Of a stretch of DNA of 48,868 nt, positions 498 to 19,384 are shown piece after piece (positions within the stretch are counted from its first letter, which is position 1; the number at the start of each line of letters is the position of its first letter). Source of the DNA: Chloroflexota bacterium (GTDB lineage: Bacteria; Chloroflexota; Limnocylindria; P2-11E); contig VBJD01000042.1 in assembly GCA_005887995.1 (NCBI GenBank), positions 1 through 48,868 on the forward strand, read 5' to 3'. The position numbers and the translations under genes are program-made. Below the pieces are notes generated by a model that made no database searches, was not told the DNA's origin, and was given only the letters and a program-made list of their open reading frames with translations.

Positions 498-571
498 GTG
501 CCGTGCCGGACTTGAACCCGCGACACACATGGTTCTTCAGACCATTGCTCTACCGACTGAGCTACCTCGGC
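498..571 (-). pseudogene. tRNA-Phe(GAA)-like pseudogene
   Basis: Read on the minus strand from 571, the 5' acceptor strand GCCGAGG, the D arm GCTC-AGTCGGTA-GAGC and an anticodon arm ATGGT-CTGAAGA-ACCAT (anticodon GAA, Phe) are intact. The 3' half is damaged. The variable region GTGTGTC is two bases too long. The T arm GCGGG-TTCAAGT-CCGGC has a G-G mismatch. Two bases are missing before the acceptor 3' strand, so only the outer CGGC pairs with GCCG. The end reads CACAC instead of CACCA. A -10-like TAGAAT (581-586) lies 9 nt upstream. I read this as a decayed gene, possibly the ancestor of the repeat family; a divergent functional tRNA is less likely. Confidence 0.6.
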
Positions 572-840
572 GGGACCCTCATTCTATTAGCTATTCCGCG
601 AGCAAATGGAATGGTTTAACGCGACATGGTGTAAGCAACCATGTGCGACCTTGAGCAATGGTCTCCGCAGTGCCAAGCACAACGGCGCCGAGACCATTGC
701 TCTTGTTGCCGGTATCAAACGACCGAAACCATTGCTCTCGCTGACCATTGCAGCGGCCGGTCTACACACGAGATTCCGTGTCCGCGCATTCACTCAAACC
801 ATCAGGCGCTGAGACATTGCTGTGCGCAGGCAGCGTAGCC
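498..840 (-). repeat. tRNA-half repeat, copy A
   Basis: This copy contains the tRNA-like pseudogene and is the only one with a tRNA 3' half. Beyond the promoter-like box it carries the right-hand module: an anticodon-arm-like hairpin ATGGT-GTAAGCA-ACCAT (626-642) and a 13-nt inverted repeat GAGCAATGGTCTC (653-665) / GAGACCATTGCTC (690-702). Further ACCATTGCTC words lie near 734 and 752. The right module is closely similar to that of copy C. No coding gene is seen from 572 to 1023. Confidence 0.75.
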
Positions 841-1023
841 AACGAACGCGATGATGAACCAAGCGACTCCGCTACTTTCCAGGTGTCGCGTCCGCGCCTC
901 TAACGGCGCGCGGCGCCAGAATGGTAGGAAGTCGCGCAGTCGTCCGGCCAGCGTGCGCGTCTGGGTAAACGCGCCATGGAATTCGACCGGGAGCGCGATC
1001 CAGGGGCCTCGTCGATGCGCGGA

Positions 1024-4000
1024 TCAGTAGCTGACGGATGCGATGCTGAAGACGGCCTCTCCGCCGGTCGCGCGGCGGATCTCTGTTTCGCCGCTGCCGT
1101 CGCGCTTCCAGACCCGAACCGCCGAGCCGAAGCTCGAACCCGGGTCTTTCACGAGGTAGGCCACGGCCGATCCGTCCCTGGTCCACGTCGCCTCGTACGC
1201 GGAGATCGGGAGCCGCGTGTCCTTTCCGGTCGCGATGTTCACCACATGCGTTTCGAAGTCGTTGCCCCGTGCCATGACGTAGAGGAGCTCGTCGGCGACC
1301 GCCGGATTCCAGCGCGGGTCGCGCAGCTGGACCGCTTCTAGTCGACCATCCCGCTCCGGGCATGGCTCGGCCACATCCACGAGGATCCTCTCGCTTCTGG
1401 TGCGCTCATCGATCCCGACGATCCTCGACACAGGAGTCGCGATCTCTCCGCACACCTCGATCGCGATGGCGAGCTCTGGCGAGCCGGTGCGCCAGTGCGA
1501 GTACGACGGGCCCCCGGAAACAAACGCGAACCGCATGCCGATCCGTCCGGTCGTGACCTCCATCGTGGCATGGACTGGGGGGCAGTCCACACAGTCGACC
1601 ACGGGGATGGGCGAGAGGATCCGCGAACCGTCCGGCGACCACTCGACGGAAGTGTCCTGGGAGCTCGCGACCAGCTCCCTGGGACTTCCTCCGGCCACAG
1701 GCACGACGCCGATCGCATGGGACCTGTTTGCGCCGGCGTCCGCGACGGGCTTCTCGAAGACGAACGCGATCTGCGAGCCATCCCTGCTCCACGAGGGGTA
1801 GAAGCCGCGGACGCCGAGCGGCTTAGCCTGGCCGGTCACGAGGTCGATCACGACGAGCTCCCCGCCGATCGAGAAGACCATTCGCCGACCATCTGGTGAG
1901 AACTGCCGGCGCAAGTACGGCGCGCTGTCGAAGATTCCTACGGTAAAGACACCGTTCGCGCCTCCCCTCGCGGTAGCAGCGTCGAACGCGACCACAATCG
2001 TCGCCGCGCCCCCGCTCGCGGGGACCGCGATGATCTGGATCTCGATGCGGTCGCGCTCGGGCCGCGGGATCTGCACGCCATAGAAGAGCCAGTTGCCAGT
2101 GACCTGACCGAGCGGGGTCGTTCGGATGTTCGGCGGGGGCGCGGCGGCTAACGACGCGGGCGCGGTGGGCGCGGGTGTCGTCGACACCGCAACCGTCGGC
2201 GTGACCTTGCGGATGCGATTGTTGTAAGTGTCCGCGATGTAGAGGTTGCCGGCGGGATCGAGGGCCACGCCTGAGGGTTCCCGGAACCGCGCGGCGGTCG
2301 CGGGGCCGCCGTCGCCTAAGAAGCCACGGCTGCCACTGCCAGCGTAGGTCGAGATGGTGCCCCCGGAGGTGACCTTGCGGATGCGCGCGTTGTCTTTGTC
2401 CGCGATGTAGAGGTTGCCGGCGGGATCGAGGCCCATGCCCCGGGGAAAGTTGAGCTCCGCGGCGGTCGCGGGGCCGCCGTCGCCAGCGAAGCGAAAGTTG
2501 CCGCTGCCGGCATAGGTCGAGATGGTGCCCCCTGTGGTGACTTTGCGGATGCGCCCGCTTTCCGCGATGTAGAGGATGCCGGCGGGATCGACGGCCACGC
2601 CCCAGGGTCCGTTGAGCTGGGCGGCGGTCGCGGGGCCGCCGTCGCCAGAGAAGCCAAAGCTGCCGCTGCCAGCGTAGGTCGAGATGGTGCCGCCGGGGGT
2701 GACCTTGCGGACGCGCGCGTTGCCCAAGTCCGCGATGTAGAGGTTGCCGGCGGGATCGAGGGTCACGCCAACGGGGTTGTTGAGGTACGCGGCGGTCGCG
2801 GGGCCGCCGTCGCCCAAGAAGCCCGGCGTACCACCGCCGCCGCCGGCGTAGGTCGAGATGGTGCCCCCGGGGCCGACCTTGCGGATGCGGCTGCTGCCGC
2901 TGTCCGCGATGTAGAGATTGCCAGCGGGATCGAGGCCCATGCCCCGGGGAAAGTTGAGCTCCGCGGCGGTCGCGGGGCCGCCGTCGCCAGCGAAGCGAAA
3001 GTTGCCGCTGCCGGCATAGGTCGAGATGGTGCCCCCTGTGGTGACTTTGCGGATGCGCCCGCTTTCCGCGATGTAGAGGATGCCGGCGGGATCGACGGCC
3101 ACGCCCCAGGGTCCGTTGAGCTGGGCGGCGGTCGCGGGGCCGCCGTCGCCAGAGAAGCCAAAGCTGCCGCTGCCAGCGTAGGTCGAGATGGTGCCGCCGG
3201 GGGTGACCTTGCGGACGCGCGCGTTGCCCAAGTCCGCGATGTAGAGGTTGCCGGCGGGATCGAGGGTCACGCCAACGGGGTTGTTGAGGTACGCGGCGGT
3301 CGCGGGGCCGCCGTCGCCCAAGAAGCCCGGCGTACCACCGCCGCCGCCGGCGTAGGTCGAGATGGTGCCCCCGGGGCCGACCTTGCGGATGCGGCTGCTG
3401 CCGCTGTCCGCGATGTAGAGATTGCCGGCGGGATCGACGGCCACGCCAACGGGTACGTTGAGCTGCGCGGCGGTGGCGGGGCCGCCGTCGCCAGAGAAGC
3501 CCGGCGTGTCGGTGCCGGCGTAGGTCGAGATGGTGCCCCCAGGGGTGACCTTGCGGATGCGGCTGTTTCCTTGGTCCGCGATGTAGAGGTTGCCGGCGGG
3601 ATCGAGGGCTACGCCAACGGGTACGTTGAGCTGCGCGGCGGTCGCGGGACCGCCGTCGCCCGAGAAGTTAGAGCTGCCGCCGCCGGCGTAGGTCGAGATC
3701 GTGCCCCCGGGGGTGACCTTGCGGATGCGGTAGTTGCCGTCGTCGGCGATGTAGAGGTTGCCGGTGAGATCGAGAGCCACGCCGGCGGGGGAGCTGAGTT
3801 GCGCAGCGGTCGCGGGGCCGCCGTCCCCGGAGAAGGGCCCCGTGCCCGTGCCGGCGTAGGTCGAGATGGTGCCGCCGGGGGTGACCTTGCGGATGCGATT
3901 GCTATCCGCGATGTAGAGGTTGCCGGCGGTATCGAGGGCCACGCCATGGGGGGAGTAGAGCGCCAACGGGTACGCCCAGCTGCGCGTCGGTCGCGGGGCC

Positions 4001-4762
4001 GCCGTCACCCGAGAAGCCAAAGCTGCCGCTGCCGGCGTAGGTCGAGATGGTCCCCCCGGAGGTGACCTTGCGGATGCGATTGTTGGTGATGTCCGCGATG
4101 TAGAGGTTGCCGGCGGGATCGAGGGCCATGCCAACGGGGTTGTTGAGCTGCGCAGCGGCCGCGGGGCCGCCGTCGCCTGAGAAGCCACGGCTGCCACTGC
4201 CGGCGTAGGTCGAGATGGTGCCCCCTGGGCTGACCTTGCGGATGCGGCTGTTGCCGCTGTCCGCGATGTAGAGGTTGCCGGCGGGATCGAGGGCAACGTC
4301 CCGGGGGAAGTTGAGCTCCGCGGCGGTCGCGGGGCCCCCGTCGCCAGAGAAGCCAAAGTTGCCGCTGCCGGCGTAGGTCGAGATGGTGCCCCCGGGCGTG
4401 ACCTTGCGGATGCGGTGGTCGGCGGTGTCCGCGATATACAGGTTGCCGGCGGGATCGAGAGCCACGCCGGCGGGGGCCAAGAGCCGCGCGGCGGTCGCGG
4501 GGCCGCCGTCGCCCGAGAAGTCCCTGCCGGCGTAGGTCGTGATGGCGCCACCGGGCAGGGGCGACGGCGTGGCGAGCGCCAGCGTCGGCGACGGCGTGAC
4601 CGGTAGCGAGTTGACCGGAGACGCCGCGGTGGGAGGCGATACCGACTCCGGACCCGAGGGCGAGCATGCAGAGAGGGCGATGCTGCAAACCAGCACGGCG
4701 ACGGCGACGCGCCGTGTGCGAGTCAGGACGTCCCTGTCATCCGCATTCCCACCCACCGGCAC
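1024..4762 (-). CDS. NHL-repeat lipoprotein with C-terminal PD40-like propeller, frameshifted
   Basis: From GTG 4762 the N-terminus has a basic and hydrophobic segment ending in a lipobox (IALSAC), so an exported lipid-anchored protein is expected; 4756 is an alternative GTG. About 14 NHL units follow, each with a GDGGPATAA-like turn and VALDPAGNLYIAD strands. The C-terminal third has TolB/PD40 words (FSPDGRRMVF, WSRDGSQIAF, WSPDGSRIL). The reading frame breaks near 3950-3985: the signal-peptide part stays open only to about 3902, and the downstream part is open in another frame down to stop 1024. Known relatives are cell-surface beta-propellers with binding roles. The gene is either a pseudogene, phase-variable by repeat recombination, or mis-assembled. 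Direct neighbours suggest no pathway. Confidence 0.75.
2421..3428 (-). repeat. 504-bp in-frame tandem duplication inside the NHL gene
   Basis: Sequence from about 2421 to 2924 is repeated almost perfectly at about 2925-3428, offset exactly 504 bp (168 codons, three NHL units). Checked anchors are the segment at 2521 and its match at 3025, and the segment at 2881 and its match at 3385. The other NHL units are only similar, so this duplication is recent. Confidence 0.85.
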
Positions 4763-5125
4763 GGTATGCGCGCTGGCATGGTCGAAGTCAACGATGATGC
4801 GGCGCGGGCCCCTGCGATCGTCGATCGCGGATCGGTCGATCCGCGCGATGCCGGCAGCGACTGGACCGCGTGGACTCGACGAGGGGGCATCGGGGAACAC
4901 CCCGCTCGTTCTCAGGTCGTCGAGCTCGTCCTAGGCGGACTCCAGCGCGCGTCGCGCCTCGGCGACGATGTTGTTGTTGTTGAGCTCTTCTGCGCGCATC
5001 GTCGCAGAGTCAGAAGGCTCGGAGAAGAAGCGCCGATGATTGGCGCCGACGTTGTGAACGACATGCCTAGATCCGGATGCCGCCGAACTCGCGCCGAGCG
5101 AGCACCGTTCAACGCTACGAAAGGT
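4763..5125. other. Intergenic, no gene supported
   Basis: Several overlapping open frames exist on both strands but lack domains and ribosome binding sites. The sequence upstream of GTG 4762 can be read in frame up to 4900, but that extension looks unlike a signal peptide and is not included in the lipoprotein. Confidence 0.45.
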
Positions 5126-5345
5126 GCGACCTGCCCGCCGCACTCAAGACTATTGGCCGCCTACACCATGGTGTTTTGACTCGAAATTTCGGTATCAGTC
5201 GCGAGTTCCGGAGCGAATTCGCGAATCGCGGTTCTCGCGATTCTTCAGACCATTGCTCTACCGACTGAGCTACCTCGGCGGGACCCTCATTTTACGCGGA
5301 ATCGAAGGTTTGGATGACACATCGTTCAGACAACCATGCCGGGGC
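5126..5345 (-). repeat. tRNA-half repeat, copy B
   Basis: On the minus strand the order is a -10-like TAAAAT (5289-5294), 9 nt, then the tRNA 5' half from 5279 (acceptor, D arm, 5' anticodon strand and loop). The 3' anticodon strand is absent; instead GAATCGCG (5223-5230) pairs with CGCGATTC (5236-5243) around the 5-nt loop 5231-5235. The left module with the conserved words TTCGGTATCAGTCGCGAG and CACTCAAGACTATT follows. Short frames encoding FFRPLLYRLSYLGG here are shadows of the tRNA half. Confidence 0.8.
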
Positions 5346-5429
5346 CGATGGAGGACACATTTCGTCTAAGCGGGATCCGTCGTCCTCGTGATCGTTCGCG
5401 GATACAGCACCGTTCCCTGCGTCGTCGGT

Positions 5430-5834
5430 CTAGTGTCGTTCACGCCCATCAGAAAGTGCCGACGCATTTCCGGGAGTCTGCCGGCCAACTTTTAGGACAC
5501 CACGTGCGAGCGCGAATGACCACATGATGGCAACTGAGAGTTCCGCCGCCTGAATTACCCATGTCGATCGGTCGTCGCGCATGCTCGTGGCCATGACGCC
5601 AACGAGCGCGACTGCGTCTAGAACTAGTAGCGTTCCTCCGAAGAACAGAGCGGCGGCTCGCCGCAGCCCGCGGGGCGATAATTCCTGGCCGGGCCAACCA
5701 AATCGGACCTGATACGCGCGCGCCACGCGCGGGACTGCGGCGTCACCGAACAAGACCTCGACGAGCCCGGTCGCCAAAACCACGAACAGCGCGACTAACG
5801 AGGCATATGCGACGACGTCTATCGCTTGGCTCAA
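5430..5834 (-). CDS. Small integral membrane protein, unknown function
   Basis: I start this 134-residue protein at TTG 5834 because that codon overlaps the stop of the upstream gene as TTGA, which suggests translational coupling; a longer frame to 5891 would invade that gene. Three hydrophobic helices are visible: about residues 5-28 (VVAYASLVALFVVLATG), 56-80 (LFFGGTLLVLDAVALVGV) and 90-112 (AELSVAIMWSFALARG). The C-terminus is polar. I do not recognise the family. It forms a two-gene unit with the soluble protein upstream and lies between repeat copies B and C. Confidence 0.6.
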   Translation of the reverse strand: MSQAIDVVAYASLVALFVVLATGLVEVLFGDAAVPRVARAYQVRFGWPGQELSPRGLRRAAALFFGGTLLVLDAVALVGVMATSMRDDRSTWVIQAAELSVAIMWSFALARGVLKVGRQTPGNASALSDGRERH

Positions 5835-6151
5835 GGTCGCATGGCATTGTGAAGATCGTCCACAGGCTGGTTCCAGCCCTCCTCGAGCCACTTCTCAATT
5901 CCGAATCCGGCCACACCCGCACTCGTGTTAGTCGCGAGGCCCGAGGCCACGGCGTGGGCAACGGCAGAGCCGCCGGGGAACTTCGGCGCCGCCCATGGCA
6001 GCCATCCAGGAACGTCTGCGTCTGAGTAATGGATCAATCCTCGAAGCGCCTCAAAGACAACCTCGCGGTCGCTGCGCCGCAGCTCAGCAATGATGTCGTC
6101 GAGCGTCTCGCCCTCGCCATGAATCGCGGCGGCAATCGCCTTCGAGTCCAC
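5831..6151 (-). CDS. Hypothetical soluble protein, coupled to membrane protein
   Basis: A 106-residue protein from ATG 6151. The first half is charged and probably helical (TLDDIIAELRRSDREVVFEA); the second is Gly/Ala-rich with GWLPWAAPKF and WLEEGWNQPVDDLHN. There is no signal peptide or membrane segment. Its stop overlaps the start of the membrane protein by 4 nt, so both are probably made together. It is divergent from the HEAT-like gene across about 140 bp. I do not recognise the family; a cytosolic partner of the membrane protein is only inference. Confidence 0.55.
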   Translation of the reverse strand: MDSKAIAAAIHGEGETLDDIIAELRRSDREVVFEALRGLIHYSDADVPGWLPWAAPKFPGGSAVAHAVASGLATNTSAGVAGFGIEKWLEEGWNQPVDDLHNAMRP

Positions 6152-6290
6152 CTGGTGAGTATCTGCCGAGCGAGTACCTAACTAGCTGTTGGTGGGACCG
6201 CCCACCGCGCCACTTCATACCCAAATCGATCTTCGCGCACACTCGATCCGGCCACGATCGGGGCGTTTTCCTTCGCTATCGTCTCGACGA

Positions 6291-7664
6291 ATGCCTGACG
6301 TCGTTGTCGCGAGCGCTGACAGCCTGCTTGGTCGAGTCCAGCGCGGGCGCGGTCAGGGCTACGTGGATGCACTTGCTGTGGCGCCTGGCGAGGGCGCTGC
6401 CGCGCTGATCAACTGTCTTACGTCAGATCCACGGACGGATCATCAGGTCGAGAGTCGCGACGAGTACTACGGGCGCATCGCTGTTGACATCGAGCTCGAC
6501 CTCGCTCCGCTCGAGGTCTTCCTTCTCGCTCCGCCGCCAGCCACCGCCAGCAAGGACGACTGGCGTGATGCCCTCGCGCTGTACACGCTCGGCTCGATGG
6601 GACGTTTGGGCCGCGCGGACGCAGTTGCACTGCTGCGCCGCTACGTTGAGATCGGTGAAGACTGGAGTACCGCGCTCGTGGCCTTGAGTTGGCCAACCGT
6701 GCTCAACGTCGAGGGTCTCGATCACGTCGTCGCTGAACGAGCGGCTTCGGTCGACGAGCTCGCGCGCGGCCTGCCATTCGAGCCAGATCGCGAGCCGTGG
6801 CTCTCGTGGCGCCGCACGAACGAGCGCATCGCTGAGGCAGCTGCGCGTAGTCACCTTTGGCGCACGCAAGGCGAACGGCGACGCGCGCAGTTCGCCGAGA
6901 AGTCCGTGATGGAAGTGCTGCGCGAGCGCGAGGTGAGCGCTTTGCGCGGCCGCTCGGATGAAGTAGACAAAGCCGCGCTCCTCGAGGCCGCAACGGGCGA
7001 CGACGAGCAGCTACGCCACGACGCGATCAAGGTGCTTGGTTGGCAACGCGACCAGCGTGTGCTCGACGCGGCGGAGTCCGAGCTTCGCCGGTTCCCTGAT
7101 CGCGAATGGCCGCCGAACGCTGGCTGGTTCGCGATATTCCAGCTGCTCAGGGACGGACCGCTTCCTCGTGTCAGAGGCTGGCTTGGTGAGCCCGGACGCC
7201 TCGGTGAGGTAGCAATGCACGCGGTAGCGGAGTGGCCAGAGCCAGGAGACGAGGCTCTTCTCCGCACGATGGCCGAACACTTCCGCGACGAAGAGTGGCT
7301 ATATCGCGCATGCGACGCAGTCGACGCGCTCGTTCGGCTACGCGATCGCCTATCCACCGCTCTGTTCGAAACGATCTTCAAGGAGACGACCTACTCGTAC
7401 TTGCGGCATCGGGTCGCTCGCGGGCTCGCGCTACTCTCGCCGACCTTCGAGGCCGGCCTGGCGATCGAGTGTCTCTGGGATTGCGAAGATCAAACCATTG
7501 CTGTCGGATGCGCAGCTGTGAGCCTTGCATCGGACGTCGCTCGTGAGCAGCTCTCTAGGATCGCCGCCGACAAACTTGCGGACCGGCGTACTCGTGCGCT
7601 TGCCGCACGACGTGTACGCCCGCTTGAGAAGCACCGTTCGCGTCGACCACGTACCGGATCCTGA
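6291..7664 (+). CDS. HEAT-repeat-like alpha-helical protein
   Basis: I choose ATG 6291 (457 residues). The frame is open upstream to a TTG at 6189, but that part is Arg/Pro-rich and overlaps the divergent promoter region, which holds an inverted repeat GGTGGG-accg-CCCACC (6191-6206). The protein is made of repeated amphipathic helix pairs such as DAIKVLGWQRDQRVLDAAESEL and ALYTLGSMGRLGRADAVALL, as in HEAT or PBS-lyase-like scaffolds. The region around residues 185-235 is Arg/Glu-rich and may be coiled. No catalytic motif is visible. Such proteins usually bind other proteins or nucleic acids; the partner here is unknown. Confidence 0.6.
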   Translation: MPDVVVASADSLLGRVQRGRGQGYVDALAVAPGEGAAALINCLTSDPRTDHQVESRDEYYGRIAVDIELDLAPLEVFLLAPPPATASKDDWRDALALYTLGSMGRLGRADAVALLRRYVEIGEDWSTALVALSWPTVLNVEGLDHVVAERAASVDELARGLPFEPDREPWLSWRRTNERIAEAAARSHLWRTQGERRRAQFAEKSVMEVLREREVSALRGRSDEVDKAALLEAATGDDEQLRHDAIKVLGWQRDQRVLDAAESELRRFPDREWPPNAGWFAIFQLLRDGPLPRVRGWLGEPGRLGEVAMHAVAEWPEPGDEALLRTMAEHFRDEEWLYRACDAVDALVRLRDRLSTALFETIFKETTYSYLRHRVARGLALLSPTFEAGLAIECLWDCEDQTIAVGCAAVSLASDVAREQLSRIAADKLADRRTRALAARRVRPLEKHRSRRPRTGS

Positions 7665-7710
7665 CTCGAGCCGTTTCTGAAGGCCGGATCATGCACGAAC
7701 ACGACGTTCG

Positions 7711-8127
7711 GCGCGGCCTGCCCGCCGCACTCAAGACTATTGATGACCTACACCATTGCTCTTCGAGGCTGAATTTCGGTATCAGTCGCGAGTTCTGCAG
7801 CAAATCCGCGGATCGCATCGCTCGCGATTCTTCAGACCATTGCTCTACCGACTGAGCTACCTCGGCGGGACCCCAATTCTATTAGGAAACTCGCGCGTCG
7901 TTCACATGCTTTAGCGCGACATGGTGTAGGCAACCATGTGTGGCGTAGGCGCAATGGTCTCCGCGCGCCGAGCACGAGGGCGCTAAGACCATTGCTCTTG
8001 CCGCCGGTATCAAACGATCGAAACCATTGCTCTCCTTACACCATTGCGCCGGGTGATCTGCAGGAGACTCGGCCTCCGGCCACGCCGTTCGAACCATGAG
8101 GCAGCAAGACCATTGCGGTGCGCCGCG
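7711..8127 (-). repeat. tRNA-half repeat, copy C
   Basis: This is the longest copy, with both modules. TAGAAT (7876-7881) lies 9 nt from the tRNA 5' half, which begins at 7866. The replacement hairpin is GGATCGCA (7810-7817) / CGCGATTC (7823-7830) with a 5-nt loop and one A-C mismatch. The right module has ATGGT-GTAGGCA-ACCAT (7921-7937) and GCAATGGTCT (7951-7960) / AGACCATTGC (7986-7995), and resembles copy A over at least 200 bp. Confidence 0.8.
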
Positions 8128-8235
8128 CAATTCTCGAACGGGCACGGCGCTGCGAACATGTCTAGGCAGCCCAAGCTGGTCCATGACACGCGCTAACTAG
8201 GCAACCGTTATCGCGCAAACGAGGTCACGCCGACC

Positions 8236-8820
8236 TCAGGGACGGCGACGAACCGCGCGCGCGCGCATTTGCGCTGCATCTATGCGGTCACGGAGCAGCT
8301 GCTCGCCAAACTGTTCCCGCGTCGGCCAGTGATCGGCAACGCGCGCATGCCGTCCGTTCATCCACGCTCCGAACTCGCTGGTCTTGAATGCGATCGCAGC
8401 AAGTTCATTGGTGTGGCCACCACGAGGTCCTACGTGCCCGACCCACGGCGGCGGCGTGTAGTAGGCACGGGGTAGAGAGGCCGACGACGGACCGACGATC
8501 CATTCCTGGCGAAGCTCTCCGTCTCCTGGGCGCGCGGAGATGATGCCTGCGACGAACCGACCCGCTGCGAGTGCCGGCCGCGTAAAGATCGTGTCGACGT
8601 AGGTGTAGTCCGCGTTCGAGAACTTCATCAAGCGAGCATCCACGCCGAGCTCACCGTAGAGACTCACGACGCGCTCGACGAAAGTGCTCGTCGGTGAGGC
8701 AACACACATCGTCGGAACGCTGCTCATCCCAGTCGGCACGGAACCGTTTGCAAAGGTCTCCGACGTGTACTCACGAACGAGGCTGTTGTACGCGATGAAC
8801 CGTGTCTCGAGGTCACTCAC
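8236..8820 (-). CDS. Hypothetical protein
   Basis: A protein of about 194 residues from GTG 8820 (a GTG at 8859 would add 13 residues). It is soluble, with segments TMCVASPTSTFVERVVSLYG, NADYTYVDTIFTRPALAAG, WIVGPSSASLPRAYYTPPPW and a basic C-terminus. The end, ADHWPTREQFGEQLLRDRID, looks helical. There is no signal peptide, membrane helix or known catalytic motif. It stands alone between repeat copy C and the HigB-like toxin. I do not recognise the family. Confidence 0.5.
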   Translation of the reverse strand: MSDLETRFIAYNSLVREYTSETFANGSVPTGMSSVPTMCVASPTSTFVERVVSLYGELGVDARLMKFSNADYTYVDTIFTRPALAAGRFVAGIISARPGDGELRQEWIVGPSSASLPRAYYTPPPWVGHVGPRGGHTNELAAIAFKTSEFGAWMNGRHARVADHWPTREQFGEQLLRDRIDAAQMRARAVRRRP

Positions 8821-8973
8821 ACGGGCAATTCTAGAGAACGGTGCGGGCTGCCAACGCACCTGCTACGAAACGTAGGACCGGTCCGCGCATGGTCTGTGAC
8901 ACGACTGTTCTGAGGGGCTGACTCGCTCATCGCGACTCCAACTCAGTCGTCATCCGCGCCTACGCTCTGTGCG

Positions 8974-9429
8974 ATGACGGAAACTCGTGACCCGGACTAT
9001 CCATATGAAATCGAGTTCTATGACGATCCCGAGACAGGTCGAGCGCCGGTTCTCGAGTGGATCCTTGAACTCGATCCCCTGCTGCGCGGCGCGCTGGGCA
9101 CAGCAATGCGCGAGGTGCTCCAGCGCCACGGCATCGCGGTCTGCCACGGCGAGTGGGGTAAGCAGCTGGGTGAAGGGCTATTCGAATTCCGTGTGCGCCA
9201 CTCGGCGGAGGAGACCGTGGCGATGTTCACCGATCGGCCCCCTCGAAAGGAACCACGGCCGGACAAGATCGCGCTGCGTGTGTTCGGCCACGCACATGGC
9301 GACAAGCTGCTGTTGCTGCTGGCCGGTTACGACAAAGCCGCCGACCCGAGTGACCGCCGCCAGGACCGCGAGATCGAGCTGGCGCGAAAGCGGCTGACGG
9401 AGTACCGCGGTCGACGCACGGGTACTTGA
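8974..9429 (+). CDS. HigB/Gp49-like toxin (RelE superfamily)
   Basis: The 151-residue protein matches phage-derived Gp49-like (DUF891) toxins: an N-terminal strand YEIEFYDDPETG, the segment APVLEWILEL, then HGEWGKQLGEGLFEFRVRHS and a core strand KIALRVFGHAHGDKLLLLLA, ending in a basic helix with ELARKRLTEYRG. These proteins are ribosome-dependent mRNA interferases. It is followed by an XRE antitoxin gene in toxin-first order, as in HigBA. ATG 8974 lies 7 nt after a weak TACGCT box, so a leaderless transcript is possible. At 151 residues it is longer than many HigB toxins. Confidence 0.8.
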   Translation: MTETRDPDYPYEIEFYDDPETGRAPVLEWILELDPLLRGALGTAMREVLQRHGIAVCHGEWGKQLGEGLFEFRVRHSAEETVAMFTDRPPRKEPRPDKIALRVFGHAHGDKLLLLLAGYDKAADPSDRRQDREIELARKRLTEYRGRRTGT

Positions 9430-9454
9430 CGATATGGGCTATAACCCATAGTAT
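9426..9454 (+). promoter_or_regulatory. Putative antitoxin promoter with operator in the spacer
   Basis: TTGACG (9426-9431) and TAGTAT (9449-9454) are separated by 17 nt. The spacer holds the inverted repeat ATGGG (9434-9438) / CCCAT (9445-9449). The antitoxin ATG is at 9462, only 7 nt beyond the -10 box, so the transcript would be leaderless. The boxes are seen in the sequence; repression by the antitoxin is inference. Confidence 0.6.
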
Positions 9455-9461
9455 CCGCCCC

Positions 9462-9782
9462 ATGGCCAAGCCGACGTTCAACGAGCTCTGGCGTCAGATA
9501 CAAGCCGAAGCCAAGGCTGAAGGCCCGGCTGCGGTCGCCGAACTGCGGCGGATGCAACACCGCTACCGGCTCGGCGCCGAGTTCAGCTTGCTCCGCAAGG
9601 ACGCCGGACTCTCCCAAGACGAGCTCGCAAAGCGGACCGGCATCGACCAGGCTGAGATCAGCCGCATCGAGCGAGGCGCAAGCAACGCCACTGAGGACAC
9701 GCTCGCGCGTATCGCGCAGGAACTTGATGCGGAGATCGCATTGGTTCGCCGGGGAGAGCGAGCGGCGGTCGGCGCGAGGTAA
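9462..9782 (+). CDS. XRE-family HTH antitoxin (HigA-like)
   Basis: A 106-residue protein from ATG 9462; the frame extends to 9426 but those residues are promoter sequence. The N-terminal helix (FNELWRQIQAEAKAEG) is followed by a Cro/C1-type HTH: LLRKDAGLSQDELAKRTG, then IDQAEISRIERG as the recognition helix, and ATEDTLARIAQELDAE. It pairs with the Gp49-like toxin 32 bp upstream. Known HigA proteins neutralise the toxin and repress their own promoter, which fits the inverted repeat just before the gene. Confidence 0.85.
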   Translation: MAKPTFNELWRQIQAEAKAEGPAAVAELRRMQHRYRLGAEFSLLRKDAGLSQDELAKRTGIDQAEISRIERGASNATEDTLARIAQELDAEIALVRRGERAAVGAR

Positions 9783-9830
9783 TTCCGCGACCAATAACGC
9801 CCTGCCGACTCACATGAGGAAGGCACTGAC

Positions 9831-10661
9831 CTACCTCGGCACCGGCGAGGGCAACGGATCGCGGGGTCGGCCGCGAATCACCCTCGATAAGACGAATGTT
9901 GCGATGACAAGCACGACCGGACCGGCGAGCGAGAGCCACTGACGAGCGTCTTGTGTGTTGAATCGCAGCGTGAAGACGACCCACGGTACGACCGCTAGTA
10001 GTAGTAGGCCCGCGACGACGAGTGCCGAGCGCATCGGGTTCGAAGCACGTCGCGCCAGAACGTACGCCCCCGCAAGGGGGCCAACCACGATGGTGGTTAC
10101 GTCGAACGCGGACGGGACGGGGTCGCTAAGCATCATCGGCAGCACATAGCCCACCCAGTGCACGAGGGCGATGGGTGCGGATGCTTCCAGCTCGTCACGG
10201 AGCGGGACACGCGCGTGCGTCAGAGCCGCTGTCAACACGCCAATCGCAAAGCCAGGCAGAAGCCAGGCTTGCGGTAGGACGAAATCGAAGTCCGTCGCGG
10301 CCCGGCACGCATCTGTGTTCCCGTGCGAGCAGTCGATCGCGGCGCCGACGGGATACGACAGGAACCGAAGGAACGGGACCGACGCGAATGCGATGACGCC
10401 GAGGAGTCCGCGCCAGCCACCGAGGCGCCACGCTGCGAAGGCGCCTGCTAGGGCGGCCGGAAAGAGCGTCGGCTCAAAGCGCAGCGGGCCTGACTCGTGG
10501 TGGAACACTCCTAGCGACACGAGTGCCACGGCGATCCCTACGAGGATGCCCTGGACCAGCCAGAACGCGCCGATGCCAGCGAGAGCAGCGAACCATGCAT
10601 CAGAGCCAAGAACATCGACGCGGCGAACCGCTCGCGAGTCGCGCGTCCCTTCGACTTGCAT
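9831..10661 (-). CDS. Polytopic membrane protein, unknown function
   Basis: A 276-residue protein from ATG 10661 with about seven hydrophobic helices: near residues 25-55 (AFWLVQGILVGIAVALVSLG), 65-82, 85-105, 132-150 (WLLPGFAIGVLTAALTH), 163-180, 187-205 and two at the C-terminus (SALVVAGLLLLAVVPWVVFT and VVLVIATFVLSRVI). A loop at about 107-125 has two Cys (DCSHGNTDAC) that may form a disulfide. I do not recognise the family. It converges on the antitoxin gene, whose stop is 48 bp away. Confidence 0.6.
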   Translation of the reverse strand: MQVEGTRDSRAVRRVDVLGSDAWFAALAGIGAFWLVQGILVGIAVALVSLGVFHHESGPLRFEPTLFPAALAGAFAAWRLGGWRGLLGVIAFASVPFLRFLSYPVGAAIDCSHGNTDACRAATDFDFVLPQAWLLPGFAIGVLTAALTHARVPLRDELEASAPIALVHWVGYVLPMMLSDPVPSAFDVTTIVVGPLAGAYVLARRASNPMRSALVVAGLLLLAVVPWVVFTLRFNTQDARQWLSLAGPVVLVIATFVLSRVIRGRPRDPLPSPVPR

Positions 10662-10793
10662 GTCGTTACGTTCTAGGTCACGAAGCTATCGAGTCAATGC
10701 AGACACGCGAACGCCGACCGATTTCGTCGTCTCTACCGCTGGGTACTGCGTCGATCAGATCGGCGGCGTTGACTTCACAACCGTCATCGAAGC

Positions 10794-11108
10794 GTGCAGC
10801 CTGCCCGCCGCACTCCAAGACTATTGATCGCGTAGACCATTGCTCTTCGATGCGAAATATCGGTATCAGTCGCGAGTTCCGGAGCACTGTCGCGAATCGC
10901 GATCTCCGCGATTCTTCAGACCATTGCTCTACCGACTGAGCTACCTCGGCGGGGCCCTCATTTTACGCGGTTCTCTCGATGCCACGAGCGAAAAATGGTG
11001 TAGCGAACCATTACGCGGCCGAGGCGATGGTCTCGGCACATTCACTCTCATGCCGACCGAAACCATTGCTCACAGGAGATTGCGCTGACGACCGAAACCA
11101 TTGCTCGA
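10794..11108 (-). repeat. tRNA-half repeat, copy D
   Basis: TAAAAT (10960-10965) lies 9 nt before the tRNA 5' half, which starts at 10950. The replacement hairpin is GAATCGCG (10894-10901) / CGCGATTC (10907-10914) with a 5-nt loop. On the right is ATGGT-GTAGCGA-ACCAT (10995-11011), with closing pairs changed to AATGGT/ACCATT, and two copies of GACCGAAACCATTGCTC. The frames encoding FFRPLLYRLSYLGG are shadows. Confidence 0.8.
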
Positions 11109-11174
11109 CCTGGACCACACGTCGAGACACGGTTCGCCGAGGCTGCAATCGCCTAGTGTTCGACACTCCAGGTC

Positions 11175-12965
11175 TCAAGGACTCACGGGTCGGACACGGG
11201 GCAACGTGAAGCTGAACGTGCTCCCCCGGCCGACTTCGCTCTCGACCCAGATCTTGCCGCCATGCAATTCGACGAACTTCCTGCTCAGGGTCAGACCGAG
11301 GCCGGTCCCTTCCTGTTCGGACGCTCTACTACCGTGTACCTGCTCGAACTCCTCGAAGACCCGTGCCTGATCCGTTGGCGCGATGCCCACGCCGGTGTCG
11401 TGGACCGCGACAGTGATATCGCCGGCTGTGCGCTGGGCGGTGAGCTCGATCCGCCCGCCCGCGGGTGTGAACTTCACGGCATTGGTCAGGAGGTTGAGGA
11501 TGACCTGTTTGACCTTGCGCTCGTCGGCCTCGACCTCGCCAAGGTCCGGGGCGACCGCAACAGCGAGCGCGATCTCGTGATCGGTCGCGCGTCCGCGGAT
11601 CATCGTGACGACCGACGCGATCACCTCGCTGAGTGACAGAGGCGCGAGCTCGAGCTCCATCCGACCCGCCTCGACCTTCGACAGATCGAGGATGTCGTTG
11701 ATCAGCGAGAGCTGATGCTTGCCGGACGAAAGGATGTCGCGTAGATATTCGTCCTGTTTGCCGTTCACCGGGCCGAAGATGCCTTGGAGCAGTACCTCGG
11801 AGAAGCCGATGATCGCGTTGAGCGGTGTGCGTAGCTCATGGCTCATGTTCGCGAGGAACTCGCTCTTGTGGCGGTCGGCACGACCTAGGCGCGCGTTCGC
11901 GTCCGCCAGCGCCCGACGCTGGCGGAGTGTCTGGCGCACGCTGCGTGCGAGGAGGAAAGTGGCGACGAGGAGCAGCCCGATGAGGACGAGCCGCACCACA
12001 CGTTGCTGCAGGAGCGTCGCGTCGACCTCGGTCGTCGCGGCGTCCGGCCGCTGGACCGTGATGACGTGCCAGTCGACCGCGGCGACCCGCGCCGACGCCG
12101 CGAGGCGCTTCCCACGCCCGAACGGATCGTCCAGCTCGCGATCCACGGTCTTCGCTCCGAGGGCCGCCACGACAAGCGGCGCAGCGCTCAACTCCCGAAG
12201 GACCGCATCGTCCTGTGAGAACAACTTTGTCGCTCGGGCGAGGAGTTGGCCGCTCGCGTTGACGACGTAGCTCTCGTCATTCGTCGAGAGCAACGAAAGG
12301 AGTGGCTCTGTGACGAGCGGACTGCGGACGATGACGACCAGGATGCCAAGGGGGTCGGAGCCTCGTCGATCGCCTACGAAACCGGCGACGGCGAGCGATA
12401 GCGTTCGCGACCCGGTCGTCGAGCCGCACCCGCACTCAGTGGCATCGATGCTCGCGAACAGCGGGCTCACCGCGACCGGCGAGCCGACCGACACGATTCC
12501 GACATAGGGACGGCTCGCCCGGGATGCGCCGAGCGCATCCGAGCCCAGGAACGGCTCCAGAGCAATTATCGATCCTCGTCCATCGAGCACGAGGATCTGT
12601 GAGACGCTCTGCGTCGAACCCGCGAACCTCGTGACCATGACCGACCGAAGCACCGCGAGCTGGGCTTGGACCTGTGTGAGGTCTTGTCCTTGCAGCGCGA
12701 GTGCGAGCGGCGCTGGGGCTCCACTCACTGCTGGCTGGGTGACCGTTTGCACCTGGTCAACGAGCGTCTCGATCTTGTCGTTGATCGCGGCCGCGACAGC
12801 GTCTGTGGCTCGGGCTGCAGCATCGAGCTGGGCCGTCCGCAACCGATCCCGCGTGTCTGACGCCGCGACCTCACCGAGACCGAGAACCGGCAGGCCGACG
12901 ACTACAGCGACGATCAGGACAAGTCGGAGTGGACTCGCAAGGATGGCTTCGATCCAGCGCTCCAC
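11175..12965 (-). CDS. Membrane sensor histidine kinase with extracytoplasmic Cache-like domain
   Basis: A 596-residue protein from GTG 12965. One membrane helix lies near 13-35 (LRLVLIVAVVVGLPVLGLG), then an extracytoplasmic sensory region of about 280 residues whose strand pattern suggests a double Cache domain, and a second helix near 323-345 (VVRLVLIGLLLVATFLLARS). The HisKA H-box is FLANMSHELRTPLNAIIGF with phospho-acceptor His about 376. HATPase_c shows the N box NLLTNAVKF, G1 DTGVGIA, the F box VFEEFEQV and G2 GTGLGLTLSRKF. No response regulator is adjacent; the LuxR-type gene upstream lacks a receiver domain, so the partner is unknown. Confidence 0.9.
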   Translation of the reverse strand: MERWIEAILASPLRLVLIVAVVVGLPVLGLGEVAASDTRDRLRTAQLDAAARATDAVAAAINDKIETLVDQVQTVTQPAVSGAPAPLALALQGQDLTQVQAQLAVLRSVMVTRFAGSTQSVSQILVLDGRGSIIALEPFLGSDALGASRASRPYVGIVSVGSPVAVSPLFASIDATECGCGSTTGSRTLSLAVAGFVGDRRGSDPLGILVVIVRSPLVTEPLLSLLSTNDESYVVNASGQLLARATKLFSQDDAVLRELSAAPLVVAALGAKTVDRELDDPFGRGKRLAASARVAAVDWHVITVQRPDAATTEVDATLLQQRVVRLVLIGLLLVATFLLARSVRQTLRQRRALADANARLGRADRHKSEFLANMSHELRTPLNAIIGFSEVLLQGIFGPVNGKQDEYLRDILSSGKHQLSLINDILDLSKVEAGRMELELAPLSLSEVIASVVTMIRGRATDHEIALAVAVAPDLGEVEADERKVKQVILNLLTNAVKFTPAGGRIELTAQRTAGDITVAVHDTGVGIAPTDQARVFEEFEQVHGSRASEQEGTGLGLTLSRKFVELHGGKIWVESEVGRGSTFSFTLPRVRPVSP

Positions 12966-13003
12966 GAGCTGAGGCTAGGACATCAGCCTGGACAGGGAGA
13001 TGA

Positions 13004-13132
13004 GACGCAATAGTTCGTGCTGACGCGGGGCGTGCCTGCCGCCCCGTCCATGTGTGAGATCAGTCGCAAATGTGCACTGGTCCTTACTAATCATGCGTGG
13101 GAAGTTACAAGACAACTGCTCGCTCTTCCTTG
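13004..13132. repeat. Second repeat family, copy G1
   Basis: It matches 15421-15533 with small indels. Shared words are GACGCAAT, TCGTGCTGACGCGGG, CCTGCCGCCC, GTCCATG, AAGTTACAA and ACTGCTC. The segment GGGGC-gtgcctgcc-GCCCC can form a hairpin, and G2 keeps the pairing with a shorter stem. It lies 39 bp upstream of the histidine kinase start. Confidence 0.65.
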
Positions 13133-13201
13133 ATAAGGAAAGAGCTGCAGAGAACCGACCGGGCGAACAAGGAGTCAGGATCGCTCGGCGCGCGCTCGTG
13201 C

Positions 13202-14848
13202 TCAGGCGCGCACGGGCGTAATGCCCGCGAGCCAGGCAGCAATCTGTCCGCGCGAGCGGAACCCAAGCTTTCCGAGGATGCGCTCGACATGCCCCTCCAC
13301 GGTGCGCTCGCTGAGCGTGAGCTCCTCAGCGACTTGAAGGTTGGTCAAGCCTCGAGCGACCAGCGCCGCGACTTCGCGCTCCCGCGGAGTGAGGCCCTCA
13401 GACCCGTCGCGTGTGCGAGCAGGCGGCTGGCTGATGCTCGAGGGAAAGTCGAGACCTCGCGACGCTGCTGACTCGCGGAGTCTGCCGAGGTACCACGTCG
13501 CTTTCGTCTTGCGCCAGAGCGTTTCTATGAACGCGAGGTCGTTTGAAGCAGCCGCGCCGTCGTTGAGCGAGTTGCGCGCCGCGAGTATCTCGGCCCGTCG
13601 GAGTCGCGCCAATGTCTGTCCGACGAGCGATCCCCCGACACCGACGAAGCACGCCGCGGATTCAGCGAAAAGGTCGAGGGCCCGCTGCGTTTCACCGAGG
13701 CGCGCTGCGCGCTCGGCGAGCGCGTATGCCCATCGCCCCTTCTTGCTCCTCGCTGCGTTGCTTCTGCCCGACAGCGCGAGCCGTTCCCAACGCTCGGCGG
13801 CAACGCGTTCGCCAAGCCACACCGCGGCGAACAGCCCACAGACCGCCGCCACGTCCACGTCGGGCCGCCAGTGGCCGTCCCCGAGGAGATCCACGACGCC
13901 TTCGGCGTGGTCAAGCACCGCGTTGAGCTCGCCCGACAACAGCATGACCTGGACTGCTAGAGCGCAATCCGCACGCGCTGTGGCCGACCGCGCGTGGAGG
14001 CGACGTAGCAGCGCATCGATGGACCCCGAGGGCGGAGGATCGCCGCGAGCCGTGCGGATGCACGCGGCGAGCAGCTGCGCCCTCTCTTCTCCGGGCTCGT
14101 CGTGATACGTGCTCAAGAGCTGGAGGGCGCGGTCCCAGTCGCCCTCGTCGAACGCGTATTGGATTTCTTGGTCTGAAGAGCCCCAGACGAAGCCGTGGCG
14201 GTGAGCGATCGCCAGCTGTCTGCGGTGCACCTCGGCGAGCTCAGCGGCGGGTCCCCCGGTCACCAAAAGCGAGCACCACAGCAGTTGATTCGCCCGGCTG
14301 GAGGGCCACGCGAGATCCTGCTCGAGCGCGAGGGCCAGACTCTCGCGGACCCGACCCAGCCCCTCGGGTTCGCCCTGGAGCACCATCGCGAAACCGGAGG
14401 TGGCGCGGCTGTTGACCTCCACGCTGCGCGTATTCGTGCGACGCGCGATCTCGGCCGCCTGATCGCCGAGACGGATTGCATCGGCGAGACGGCAGTCCTG
14501 TAGCGCTTCGCGCGCGACCGCCGCGTACGCGTTCGCCAGGTCTGGGCTGTCGCCATAGGGGCCAAGCACGCGGATCGCCTCGAGCGCGACATCGTTAGCC
14601 GCTGCGGGGTCTCCCATTGCGGAGGAGCAAAGGGCTAGCTGAATCAGCGCCTCGCCGAGGCGCTGTTGATCCCCCGCGGCCTCGAGGTGGCGTCGCGCCT
14701 CCATGGCCGCGTGTAGCGCGGGCTGGTGCTCGCAGGCGACCAACGACGCCCGCGAGAGCCGGAGTTGGAGGTCGGCCAGTCCCAGGTGGTCCTCTATCGG
14801 GCGCGTGCCGGACAACGTGACACCTTCCTCGCCGTCCGCCCTCGGCAT
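13202..14848 (-). CDS. LuxR-type transcriptional regulator with TPR-like region, no ATPase domain
   Basis: A 548-residue protein. Residues about 480-545 form a GerE/LuxR HTH: LTPREREVAALVARGLTNLQ, VAEELTLSERTVEGHVERIL, GKLGFRSRGQIAAWLAG. The first 450 residues are Ala/Leu/Arg-rich helical pairs resembling the TPR-like part of MalT/LAL regulators (for example LGEALIQLALCSSAMGDPAA). LAL proteins usually have an N-terminal ATPase and about 900 residues; no Walker motif is present here, so this is a short variant or a 5'-truncated gene. The ATG at 14848 is the first good start; effector and targets are unknown. Confidence 0.75.
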   Translation of the reverse strand: MPRADGEEGVTLSGTRPIEDHLGLADLQLRLSRASLVACEHQPALHAAMEARRHLEAAGDQQRLGEALIQLALCSSAMGDPAAANDVALEAIRVLGPYGDSPDLANAYAAVAREALQDCRLADAIRLGDQAAEIARRTNTRSVEVNSRATSGFAMVLQGEPEGLGRVRESLALALEQDLAWPSSRANQLLWCSLLVTGGPAAELAEVHRRQLAIAHRHGFVWGSSDQEIQYAFDEGDWDRALQLLSTYHDEPGEERAQLLAACIRTARGDPPPSGSIDALLRRLHARSATARADCALAVQVMLLSGELNAVLDHAEGVVDLLGDGHWRPDVDVAAVCGLFAAVWLGERVAAERWERLALSGRSNAARSKKGRWAYALAERAARLGETQRALDLFAESAACFVGVGGSLVGQTLARLRRAEILAARNSLNDGAAASNDLAFIETLWRKTKATWYLGRLRESAASRGLDFPSSISQPPARTRDGSEGLTPREREVAALVARGLTNLQVAEELTLSERTVEGHVERILGKLGFRSRGQIAAWLAGITPVRA

Positions 14849-14919
14849 CGTCCGAGGGCGGATACACAGCCTACGCTTCGTCGGACTGCCGGCGGACGAC
14901 GAGGACCGCGGGTCGCGGA

Positions 14920-15237
14920 CTAGTGATCACCACGGACCGGATCGGCGTACGTGTCCACTGGCGCCTTTGACATCTGCCAGTACGGATTTTCTGGGTCGCG
15001 GATGATCGTCGCGCGGATGACCGACGGCGCGCTCGCCGCAAGCTCGCTGGCGTCAGCGGCCGAGCCGACCCAGTAAGGGTTACTCAGGTCGCGGACCACG
15101 GATGCGCGCTCTCCGTTCTGGGCAGTATCGGAGAGCGCTTGGCTCGTGCTCCCGCAGGCGGCGAACAACGTAGCGCTGATCGCGAGAGCCGCCAGCTTCT
15201 TGCGCGGTCGGTCCGTTGATGTGTGCTTCGTAGCCAT
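14920..15237 (-). CDS. Small lipoprotein with two RDxxNPYW motifs
   Basis: A 105-residue protein from ATG 15237 with a GGGAG ribosome binding site 7 nt upstream. A basic N-terminus (TDRPRKK) and hydrophobic LAALAISATLFAAC end in a lipobox Cys, so the protein should be exported and lipid-anchored. The mature part has two similar segments, VVRDLSNPYWVGSA and IIRDPENPYWQMSK, separated by about 25 residues. I do not recognise the family. Repeat copy G2 lies about 180 bp upstream. The frame can be read further upstream to 15711, but that part is repeat-rich and has no coding character. Confidence 0.65.
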   Translation of the reverse strand: MATKHTSTDRPRKKLAALAISATLFAACGSTSQALSDTAQNGERASVVRDLSNPYWVGSAADASELAASAPSVIRATIIRDPENPYWQMSKAPVDTYADPVRGDH

Positions 15238-15420
15238 TCGGTTCTCCCTTCGTTGAGATGGGTCCAACGTAGGGATGCAATGGCCTTTTGAAAGCCGTGG
15301 AAACACCCGAAGTCCACCCGCGCCAGTACGCGCGTGCTGCATGCGTCGAGATCCGCCCGATCGACATCGCCGCCAACGCGCGCTGCTCCTGCTGTCGGGA
15401 CTGTCGGCGAGCGGGCTGGC

Positions 15421-15533
15421 GACGCAATCGGTCGTGCTGACGCGGGCGTACCTGCCGCCCGTCCATGCGTGAAATCGCGCAATTGCGCGCCGTCGATCTG
15501 ATCGTGCATGGCAAGTTACAAAACCACTGCTCT
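15421..15533. repeat. Second repeat family, copy G2
   Basis: Partner of copy G1 (13004-13132). Both lie upstream of a minus-strand gene start and both end in ACTGCTC, a word close to the ATTGCTC word of the tRNA-half repeats, so the two families may be related. Confidence 0.6.
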
Positions 15534-15605
15534 GAAAAGTTGAAGAGGAGGTCTTGCGCCGCACTCGCGTGAACTGACTGGCGATCAAATCGACTGCGAA
15601 GAATT

Positions 15606-15955
15606 GCGACCTGCCCGCAGCACTCTCAAGACTATTGATCGCTGAGACCATTGCTCTTCGACGCAGAAAATCGGTATCAGTCGGGAGTTTCCTAGCAATT
15701 CTGCGAATCACGTCGTGCGCGATTCTTCAGACCATTGCTCTACCGACTGAGCTACCTCGGCGGAGTCCTCATTTTACTCGGAAACTCGCGCGCGAATCGA
15801 ACGTCTGCGCGACCAATGGTCTGGAGAACCATCAGCAGTCCGATCGTCAATGGTCGCGCCGTGTGAGCACGACGACGTCGAGACCATGTGTTCAGTGTCG
15901 GCGCATCCAAACGTCGACACCATTGTTCTGGCCAGACCATTGTTCCACTCTGCGC
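15606..15955 (-). repeat. tRNA-half repeat, copy E
   Basis: TAAAAT (15771-15776) lies 9 nt before the tRNA 5' half (from 15761). The replacement hairpin is GAATCACG (15705-15712) / CGCGATTC (15718-15725), loop 5 nt, with one base pair changed to a G-U wobble. The right part has ATGGT-CTGGAGA-ACCAT (15816-15832), almost identical to the tRNA anticodon arm. ACCATTGTTC words follow near 15920 and 15938. Confidence 0.8.
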
Positions 15956-16132
15956 TCGCCGGGGACGCGAGGACAACAGAGCTAGTCTTGCCAAACCTCG
16001 CCAATGTCGGGTCGGGACGTAACTGCCGGAGACGTTCTGTGAAACTTCCCGAATTGCCCTTCATTCGCCGCCAACTCTTTCCCGTGGCGGGCTCCGCGAC
16101 CACGGACGGTCCAACTACATGGAGGTGACGAA

Positions 16133-16489: not shown

Positions 16490-16642
16490 CGCGCGCCAGC
16501 TTCCTCTGCGACCCAGATCTCCGAAGGTTCGGCGCGGACGGCCGGCAGCAGGTGGTAGGGACGCTATTTAGGATCGGGCAGTGCCGGTCACCACGGCCTT
16601 GGGACTGCGCGTTTCGACTCAACGCCACCAATCGTGGGTCTG

Positions 16643-16660
16643 ATACCCTACGTAGGGTAT
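16643..16660. promoter_or_regulatory. Perfect 18-bp palindrome over the antitoxin start codon
   Basis: ATACCCTACGTAGGGTAT is a perfect palindrome, and its last two bases are the first two of the antitoxin ATG (16659). A TACCCT box (16644-16649) inside it could serve as a -10 element of a leaderless transcript. It is the likely operator for the ribbon-helix-helix antitoxin; binding is inference. Confidence 0.7.
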
Positions 16661-19315: not shown

Positions 19316-19384
19316 GGGCTCCCCTTTTGCGTTGGCCAGAGAGTTCTCCGGGAGTCGTTCGTGATCCAGGTGCGGAAAAAAGAA

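Follow-up and report, generated by a model that had tools for sequence, protein, structure and literature searches.

Additive genomic islands, such as fGI1 of Alteromonas, fGI1 of Ca. Actinomarinales and fGI-2 of Ca. Methylopumilus, consist of variable cassettes located at a tRNA gene, which are accompanied by direct repeats of a part of the tRNA, as described in the relevant passages of PMC4119200, PMC7771536 and PMC10872708. The 20-bp tRNA-Lys repeat given in a passage of PMC10872708 reads as the 5' end of the tRNA; the paper itself refers to the last 20 bp. Tycheposons are likewise cargo-carrying elements at tRNA genes; according to passages of PMC10872708, they range from 4 to 200 kb and possess a tyrosine recombinase in Methylophilaceae. 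The tyrosine-recombinase islands collected by Islander use sites in the anticodon loop, restore the gene, leave a displaced fragment at the far end and can form tandem arrays. As stated in parts of PMC4383910, the Islander candidates were tested for an integrase gene, 3760 islands carry a 3' fragment of the target gene compared to 159 with a 5' fragment, and four tandems of three or more islands were recorded. Integrons are arrays of small cassettes with a recombination site beside each, one fixed anchor and toxin-antitoxin cargo. Xer-exploiting elements (IMEX) use the host Xer at a dif-like core. To our knowledge, no mechanism has been established by which additive tRNA islands expand when they have no evident integrase.

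The 48,868-nt stretch of chloroflexotal DNA analysed here (the window) is best explained as a tRNA-Phe gene beside which about five small elements (2.6-4.8 kb) stand in tandem (Table 1). The array works like an additive tRNA island, with a conserved tRNA target and cassettes that vary among relatives; however, the repeated piece is a 43-bp 5' half of the tRNA, usually with a -10-like box, and it is framed by two conserved arms made of copies of a word from the core. Arms of this kind are not described in the additive-island passages of PMC4119200, PMC7771536 and PMC10872708. The locus shares with Islander islands the anticodon-loop site, the restored gene, the displaced fragment and the tandem arrangement, but the fragment is the 5' one, about five elements stand in tandem in the window, and no integrase was found on the array contigs of 28 genomes of the family, apart from one on G001:C8 that seems to be part of another element. 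The small-cassette array, the sites beside the cassettes, the single fixed anchor and the toxin-antitoxin cargo are reminiscent of integrons, whereas no intI-type gene was detected with PF00589 in the window genome, the fixed site is a tRNA gene and one interval reaches 15 kb. In contrast to tycheposons, no tyrosine recombinase was found in these cassettes. A description of this array was not found in the PMC literature searched, which mostly lacks subscription papers, and the 5' half with promoter, the conserved two-arm site of core words and the lack of a recombinase look new.

Architecture of the junctions and of the tRNA-Phe gene

The first-pass annotation had drawn attention to a perfect 13-bp inverted repeat made of the word found at the junction of the D stem and the anticodon stem, and had suggested that this word recurs in both orientations more often than drift would produce. 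The inverted repeat was confirmed at its coordinates: in copy A, GAGCAATGGTCTC at 653-665 and GAGACCATTGCTC at 690-702 are perfect complements with a spacer of 24 bp, and in copy C the arms are 10 bp long (7951-7960 and 7986-7995). It is the sole perfect 13-bp inverted repeat with a spacer of up to 60 bp in the window; however, dinucleotide shuffles of the window contain on average 0.33 such repeats, and at least one is present in 9 of 60 shuffles. The inverted repeat by itself is thus within chance and not significant. The assignment of the word to the D-stem/anticodon-stem junction of tRNA-Phe was correct, and its excess was borne out: with up to one mismatch, 24 matches are found in the window, compared to 1.74 expected and a shuffle maximum of 5 (n = 100), and the 3.02-Mb genome contains 21 exact copies as compared with one copy of a reversed-pattern control. 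Fifteen of these lie on the window contig, four on C204 and one each on C13 and C64. According to home-made gene calls, 20 of the 21 copies are located outside predicted genes, the exception being C204:8197; hence, the word is not equally frequent in coding sequence. The remaining 20 copies are parts of a single repeated structure, and it is the comparison with relatives, described below, that points to serial integration of cassettes at tRNA-Phe. The proposal that each element contains several copies of one tRNA fragment did not hold, since every junction has one true piece of the tRNA, the 43-bp 5' half; the other words are matches of 8-12 bp, which are found at near-fixed spacing in the flanking arms.

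A typical junction consists of a P arm of ~117 bp, a copy of the 43-bp 5' half of tRNA-Phe and a P' arm. On the plus strand, the P arm starts with CCTGCCCGCCGCACT and ends with CGCGATT in most copies, followed by the reverse complement of the 5' half (43 bp, CTTCAGACC...). Across the window genome and its relatives, 27 P arms align over ~117 bp and tRNA-half sequence follows 24 of them, in one case with a deletion; at least five P-arm-like stretches lacking a full half (L010, L054 near 10397, L061 and two on L062) were left out of this alignment. A wider scan yielded 37 matches, from which two duplicates of the same DNA and three matches judged to be due to chance were set aside; a full half follows in 24 of the 32 that were kept and in none of the other eight, several of which retain CTTCAGACCA before they diverge.

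In the P' arm, words are located near offsets 47 (-), 80 (-), 115 (+), 150 (+) and 167 (+), counted from the end of the half; these positions vary by a few bases, and in some arms by more. The reported inverted repeat is formed by the sites at offsets 80 and 115. Many P' arms also contain a core-like ATGGT-N7-ACCAT or a close variant at offset ~49, a pattern that is present in tRNA-Phe itself. At least three words per 300 nt occur in 18 of 29 flanks beside halves, compared to none of six native tRNA-Phe flanks, which have at most one word each, and 11 of 2000 random 300-nt segments taken from 20-48.9 kb of the window. The 11 flanks with fewer than three words include those of three outermost halves and the window's arm at 5286, in which no word is present. 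Words are also found in the P arm, at the opposite end of the cassette. Additional ATGGT-N7-ACCAT patterns on C204 (L009 927-943 and 1888-1904) lie away from tRNA halves and are possibly decayed junctions.

The scored set of 29 halves includes five that lie inside intact tRNA genes and leaves out g13b (placed at a wrong offset and with part of its half deleted), CF140a (which has an insertion of 1 nt) and six native tRNAs; 26 of the 29 are identical to the tRNA at 35 positions, and the surrounding arms differ more. A TA(A/G)AAT box is found 4-5 bases beyond the half in 24 of 29 cases; all three outermost halves, those of G006, G016 and G027, lack it, and two of six native tRNA-Phe flanks also have it. 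The incoming element seems to supply both the tRNA 5' half and this -10-like box, a putative promoter. The D-loop letters of the halves correspond to those of the host tRNA-Phe wherever this gene was found (GA in the window genome, G000, and in G001; AA in G002, G003 and G016; AG in G006), and this agreement holds even for the S51 cassette common to G000 and CF140. It could be due to concerted evolution or to circulation within lineages. The tRNA-Phe gene of the window is the sole exact match in G000; its Rfam score of 40.3 bits and broken acceptor stem, as compared with 70.4-72.8 bits in CF140, G001, G002, G003, G006, G016 and G018, suggest that it may be a dead copy or pseudogene, with the working gene unassembled. 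The genes for tRNA-Val and tRNA-Leu, neighbours of tRNA-Phe in several relatives, are absent from the window.

Four junctions of the window are complete, with different cargo between them. The P' arm of each one starts at the 5' end of the tRNA sequence and carries a -10-like box there. The Gp49-like match in cassette 3 reaches 23.0 bits, which is below the Pfam cut-off of 23.9. Much of cassette 1 is occupied by a gene with at least 12 repeats of ~168 bp (2164-4541; NHL/teneurin-like). Elsewhere in the window genome, two junctions are found on C204 and one on C64, and C13 carries a P arm without a half.

Table 1. Features of the tRNA-Phe array in the window.
Feature	Position	Strand	Basis or remark
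tRNA-Phe (GAA), integration target, 3' half degenerate	498-572	-	ARAGORN; Rfam tRNA 40.3 bits, acceptor-stem mismatches
tRNA-Phe 5' half, putatively from newest element (copy A)	535-577	-	identical at 35/35 positions
-10-like box TAGAAT, just upstream of tRNA 5' end	581-586	-	motif match only
Core-like ATGGT-N7-ACCAT in P' arm, offset 49	626-642	.	sequence pattern
Word at offset 80, left arm of inverted repeat	653-665	-	
Word at offset 115, right arm of inverted repeat	690-702	+	
Word at offset 150	725-737	+	
Weaker word at offset 167	741-753	+	
Cassette 1, NHL-repeat protein (1024-4008, minus)	578-5242	.	junctions; Pfam
P arm, cassette 1	5126-5242	+	27-P-arm alignment
Displaced tRNA-Phe 5' half	5243-5285	-	0 mismatches at 35 positions; next arm without words
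Cassette 2, 457-aa protein without Pfam match	5286-7829	.	
P arm, cassette 2, one word at 7751-7761	7713-7829	+	P-arm alignment
Displaced tRNA-Phe 5' half (copy C)	7830-7872	-	half scoring
Copy C word, offset 80	7949-7961	-	
Copy C word, offset 115	7985-7997	+	
Cassette 3, toxin-antitoxin-like pair (8974-9429 and 9462-9782); two proteins without Pfam match	7873-10913	.	
P arm, cassette 3	10796-10913	+	P-arm alignment
Displaced tRNA-Phe 5' half	10914-10956	-	half scoring
P' arm words after the 10914 half	11022-11034, 11059-11071, 11094-11106	-, +, +	
Cassette 4, histidine kinase and LuxR-type regulator	10957-15724	.	Pfam
P arm, cassette 4	15606-15724	+	P-arm alignment
Displaced tRNA-Phe 5' half	15725-15767	-	half scoring
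P' arm, five words, some weak, from 15811, 15845, 15880, 15916 and 15933	15811-15945		
Cassette 5, glyoxalase-like, PIN and RHH pair, DUF1801; outer boundary uncertain	15768-19398	.	
Outer end, P-arm terminus and decayed core only	19399-19442	+	repeat family D6

Related arrays and common cassettes

A search of 301 genomes, in which two candidates per genome were scored, showed that, among the matches listed, all those covering the P arm belong to the genus and family of the window genome, and that most of the others are tRNA-Phe halves. G001, G002, G003, G004, G006, G013, G016 and CF140 carry either an array, a single element or a P' arm beside the tRNA; tandem halves were found in G002, G003, G004 and G016, and a single element in G006. 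A P' arm lies directly next to tRNA-Phe in the window, G001, G002, G003, G006, G016 and CF140, and carries words at the tRNA-Phe of G002 and G003 as well. Halves are spaced 1.0 to 15.2 kb apart, and on contigs with at least two of them all have the same orientation. An exact-pattern scan of a species-genome collection returned eight stretches on seven contigs, six of which are recorded as Chloroflexi bacterium and one as Candidatus Eisenbacteria. The latter contig, L101 (VBOY01000126.1), carries two P arms and a BrnT/CopG pair and points to either misbinning or cross-phylum transfer.

CF140 and G018 share ~94% identity through tRNA-Phe, and similarity is lost within ~10 bp of the 5' end of the gene; the tRNA-Phe of G018 is without P' words. 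Beyond their outermost halves, G016 and G027 have a flank in common; it contains no words at the threshold used and is absent at the tRNA-Phe of G018 and G022. This flank could be the original chromosomal sequence or, given its absence from G018 and G022, an old arm. In L057 (~1333), L101 (~4241), L063 (~5740), L062 (~2196) and L054 (~10265), the sequence behind the P arm departs from that of the half at the core or shortly beyond it, and these five are possible secondary-site insertions or products of decay. An age gradient of the halves is not claimed, since the more decayed half of CF140 sits nearer the tRNA.

The cargo comprises BrnT with a CopG antitoxin, PIN with RHH, AbiEii with an AbiEi-like partner, as well as glyoxalase, Peptidase S51, ABM, luciferase-like and regulator genes. 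Among the pairs that passed the length and identity filter, common cargo shows nucleotide identities of 92.8% over 795 bp for G000 and G027 and 96.0% over 495 bp for G000 and G013 (across genera), 87.0% over 924 bp including the junction for CF140 and G000, and 95.4-99.0% for CF140 and G016, a pair which may simply be close relatives. By comparison, the two contigs of G000 and G013 are 72.2% identical in a different stretch, and the backbone of G001 is 72-75% identical to those of G018 and G027. These identities indicate that some cassettes have been exchanged between genera. A dihydrofolate-reductase-like gene, named by eye, lies near the array ends in two genera (window 19649-20269 and L062 5575-6228) with 83% nucleotide identity, which is above the backbone level.

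Candidate recombinases

On the array contigs of the 28 family genomes, a set to which CF140 and the Eisenbacteria contig L101 do not belong, PF00589 gave no match except on G001:C8. This tyrosine recombinase, P0001, is encoded ~4 kb from tRNA-Phe; however, it was rejected as the array enzyme because its closest homologue (G016:C49, 52%) adjoins an apparent tRNA-Thr 3' fragment, read by eye, with no P arm or half near, and also because the G001 copy lies between tRNA-Gly and tRNA-Phe. It seems to be part of another element. In L118 10500-13500 (G016:C49) and L052 9664-11608, a partner gene lies upstream of a divergent tyrosine recombinase; the two loci probably represent a separate integrative element family.

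G000, G002, G004 and G013 have one PF00589 match each, which is Xer-like in all four; in G002, G004 and G013 it is the sole match to PF00589 or PF00239, and G000 has a serine recombinase in addition. The single PF00589 protein of G000 scores 44.9 bits with the integron-integrase model (cut-off 265), and PF00589 reveals no intI-type gene in this genome, which is 86.7% complete. The 351-aa Xer form (P0002) scores 145 bits with the XerD model (cut-off 330). Among 151 genomes of the class, its matches of at least 57% identity are all in the family of the window genome, with weaker relatives elsewhere. Among the 28 family genomes, this form never co-occurs with a second form of ~324 aa, save for a C-terminal remnant in G002, and the flank downstream of the 324-aa gene in G018 matches that of the 351-aa gene in G013, G020 and G022 (79-91% nt). 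As they are mutually exclusive and have a common downstream flank, both forms look like housekeeping enzymes, and the 351-aa Xer was rejected as a dedicated array enzyme; any link between an Xer form and the arrays is confounded by genus. In G002 (C50:92705-94498), the 324-aa Xer gene is followed ~0.7 kb later by the C-terminal remnant of the 351-aa form, which looks like an Xer replacement.

A serine recombinase was rejected as well, since PF00239 had no match in five of the eight array genomes and, in the other three, only matches off the array contigs. Searches of phages, plasmids and IMG/VR with the junction, the P arm, the core or the tRNA half found nothing. A two-word pattern was found in at least 120 IMG/VR stretches; none of 80 loci checked has a tRNA half, and seven have at least five words per 250 nt, most of these seven resembling simple tandem repeats.

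Proposed integration at the anticodon loop and alternative readings

We consider it very likely that the arrays arise through serial site-specific integration at the anticodon loop, and that the elements bring in a new tRNA 5' half together with a promoter. Each element would be a circle in which a single tRNA 5' half separates the two arms. Recombination of this circle with the anticodon loop of tRNA-Phe would rebuild the tRNA with the half and promoter that arrive, and the old half would be pushed outward to become the next junction. According to a review passage (PMC8371274), the 7-bp anticodon loop with its palindromic stem corresponds to the classic overlap and core. Here, core inverted repeats around a 7-bp overlap, together with an array of arm words, are present as a sequence pattern only. 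The word AGACCATTGCTC also forms one side of the core within the tRNA and would be a site for the recombinase or a partner protein; the words in general are probably such recombinase or accessory-protein sites. The recombinase would act in trans and be either helper-borne or the host Xer; we lean towards the helper. That the system amounts to an integron-like capture without a recombinase of its own, in which a single-copy tRNA-Phe serves as the site, each cassette brings a spare 5' half and promoter, many copies of the anticodon-stem word make up the sites and the host Xer or a helper acts in trans, is a tentative proposal, which we regard as rather doubtful.

The alignment of the P arms, the word offsets as compared with the native flanks, the tandem halves of relatives, the breakpoint between CF140 and G018, the cross-genus cargo, the 26 of 29 perfect halves and the -10-like box in 24 of 29 argue for integration. 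On the other side stand the 11 of 29 flanks with fewer than three words, the eight of 32 P-arm stretches without a full half, the degenerate tRNA-Phe of the window, its missing tRNA-Val and tRNA-Leu neighbours, the common flank of G016 and G027 that may be an old arm, and the lack of a candidate enzyme on the array contigs searched, G001:C8 apart; in addition, the outer end of the window array is partial, and repeats may lead to assembly errors in contigs of metagenome-assembled genomes.

Ordinary homologous recombination between the conserved junctions of ~350 bp, for instance after DNA uptake and with no current site-specific recombinase, would fit the length of the junction units, the lack of a recombinase on the arrays searched and the D-loop letters, which follow the host tRNA-Phe as gene conversion would give. 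On its own, however, it explains neither the first insertion at the tRNA nor the loss of similarity at the tRNA 5' end relative to G018 nor the near-fixed spacing of the words, and we judge it improbable. The words could also be regulatory sites, either operators or tRNA promoter elements, with no tie to recombination, as they are located upstream of the tRNA and the P' arm contains a -10-like box; this is very improbable given that each of the six native tRNA-Phe flanks has at most one such word and that words occur in the P arm, too.

It has also been considered that the words pair as a hairpin, in RNA or in single-stranded DNA, so that the structure rather than the sequence would matter. 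attC sites function as folded single strands and thus provide a precedent, and the inverted repeat of copy A is perfect. However, a pairing count of the words at offsets 80 and 115 over 208 positions, in 16 of the 29 P' arms (g16c, eisA and 11 arms with fewer than three words were omitted) that had been found by their likeness to the word, which favours the word, gave 160 positions with the consensus on both sides, 40 changed on one side, five changed on both sides and unpaired and three changed on both sides and still paired; 12 of the 45 unpaired positions would be G-T. On these counts, the word and not the pairing is conserved, and the inverted repeat is not a selected hairpin; the reading was rejected as extremely improbable. 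A SINE- or MITE-like repeat derived from tRNA-Phe and copying itself round the genome would likewise place a repeated tRNA-derived unit between genes, but the 21 copies of the word are confined to four of 231 contigs, multiple halves on one contig share their orientation, the P' arm abuts tRNA-Phe in the window and the relatives named above, and the cargo between the units differs, which leaves this explanation with a next to negligible probability.

Serial integration at tRNA-Phe, if true, would mean that an essential tRNA gene has its promoter and 5' half replaced time and again by a family of elements whose arm sites are copies of the word in the core. As the sites are well preserved and some cassettes appear to have moved between genera, the arrays offer an explicit and testable site architecture, consisting of two arms, a core and a near-fixed spacing of words.
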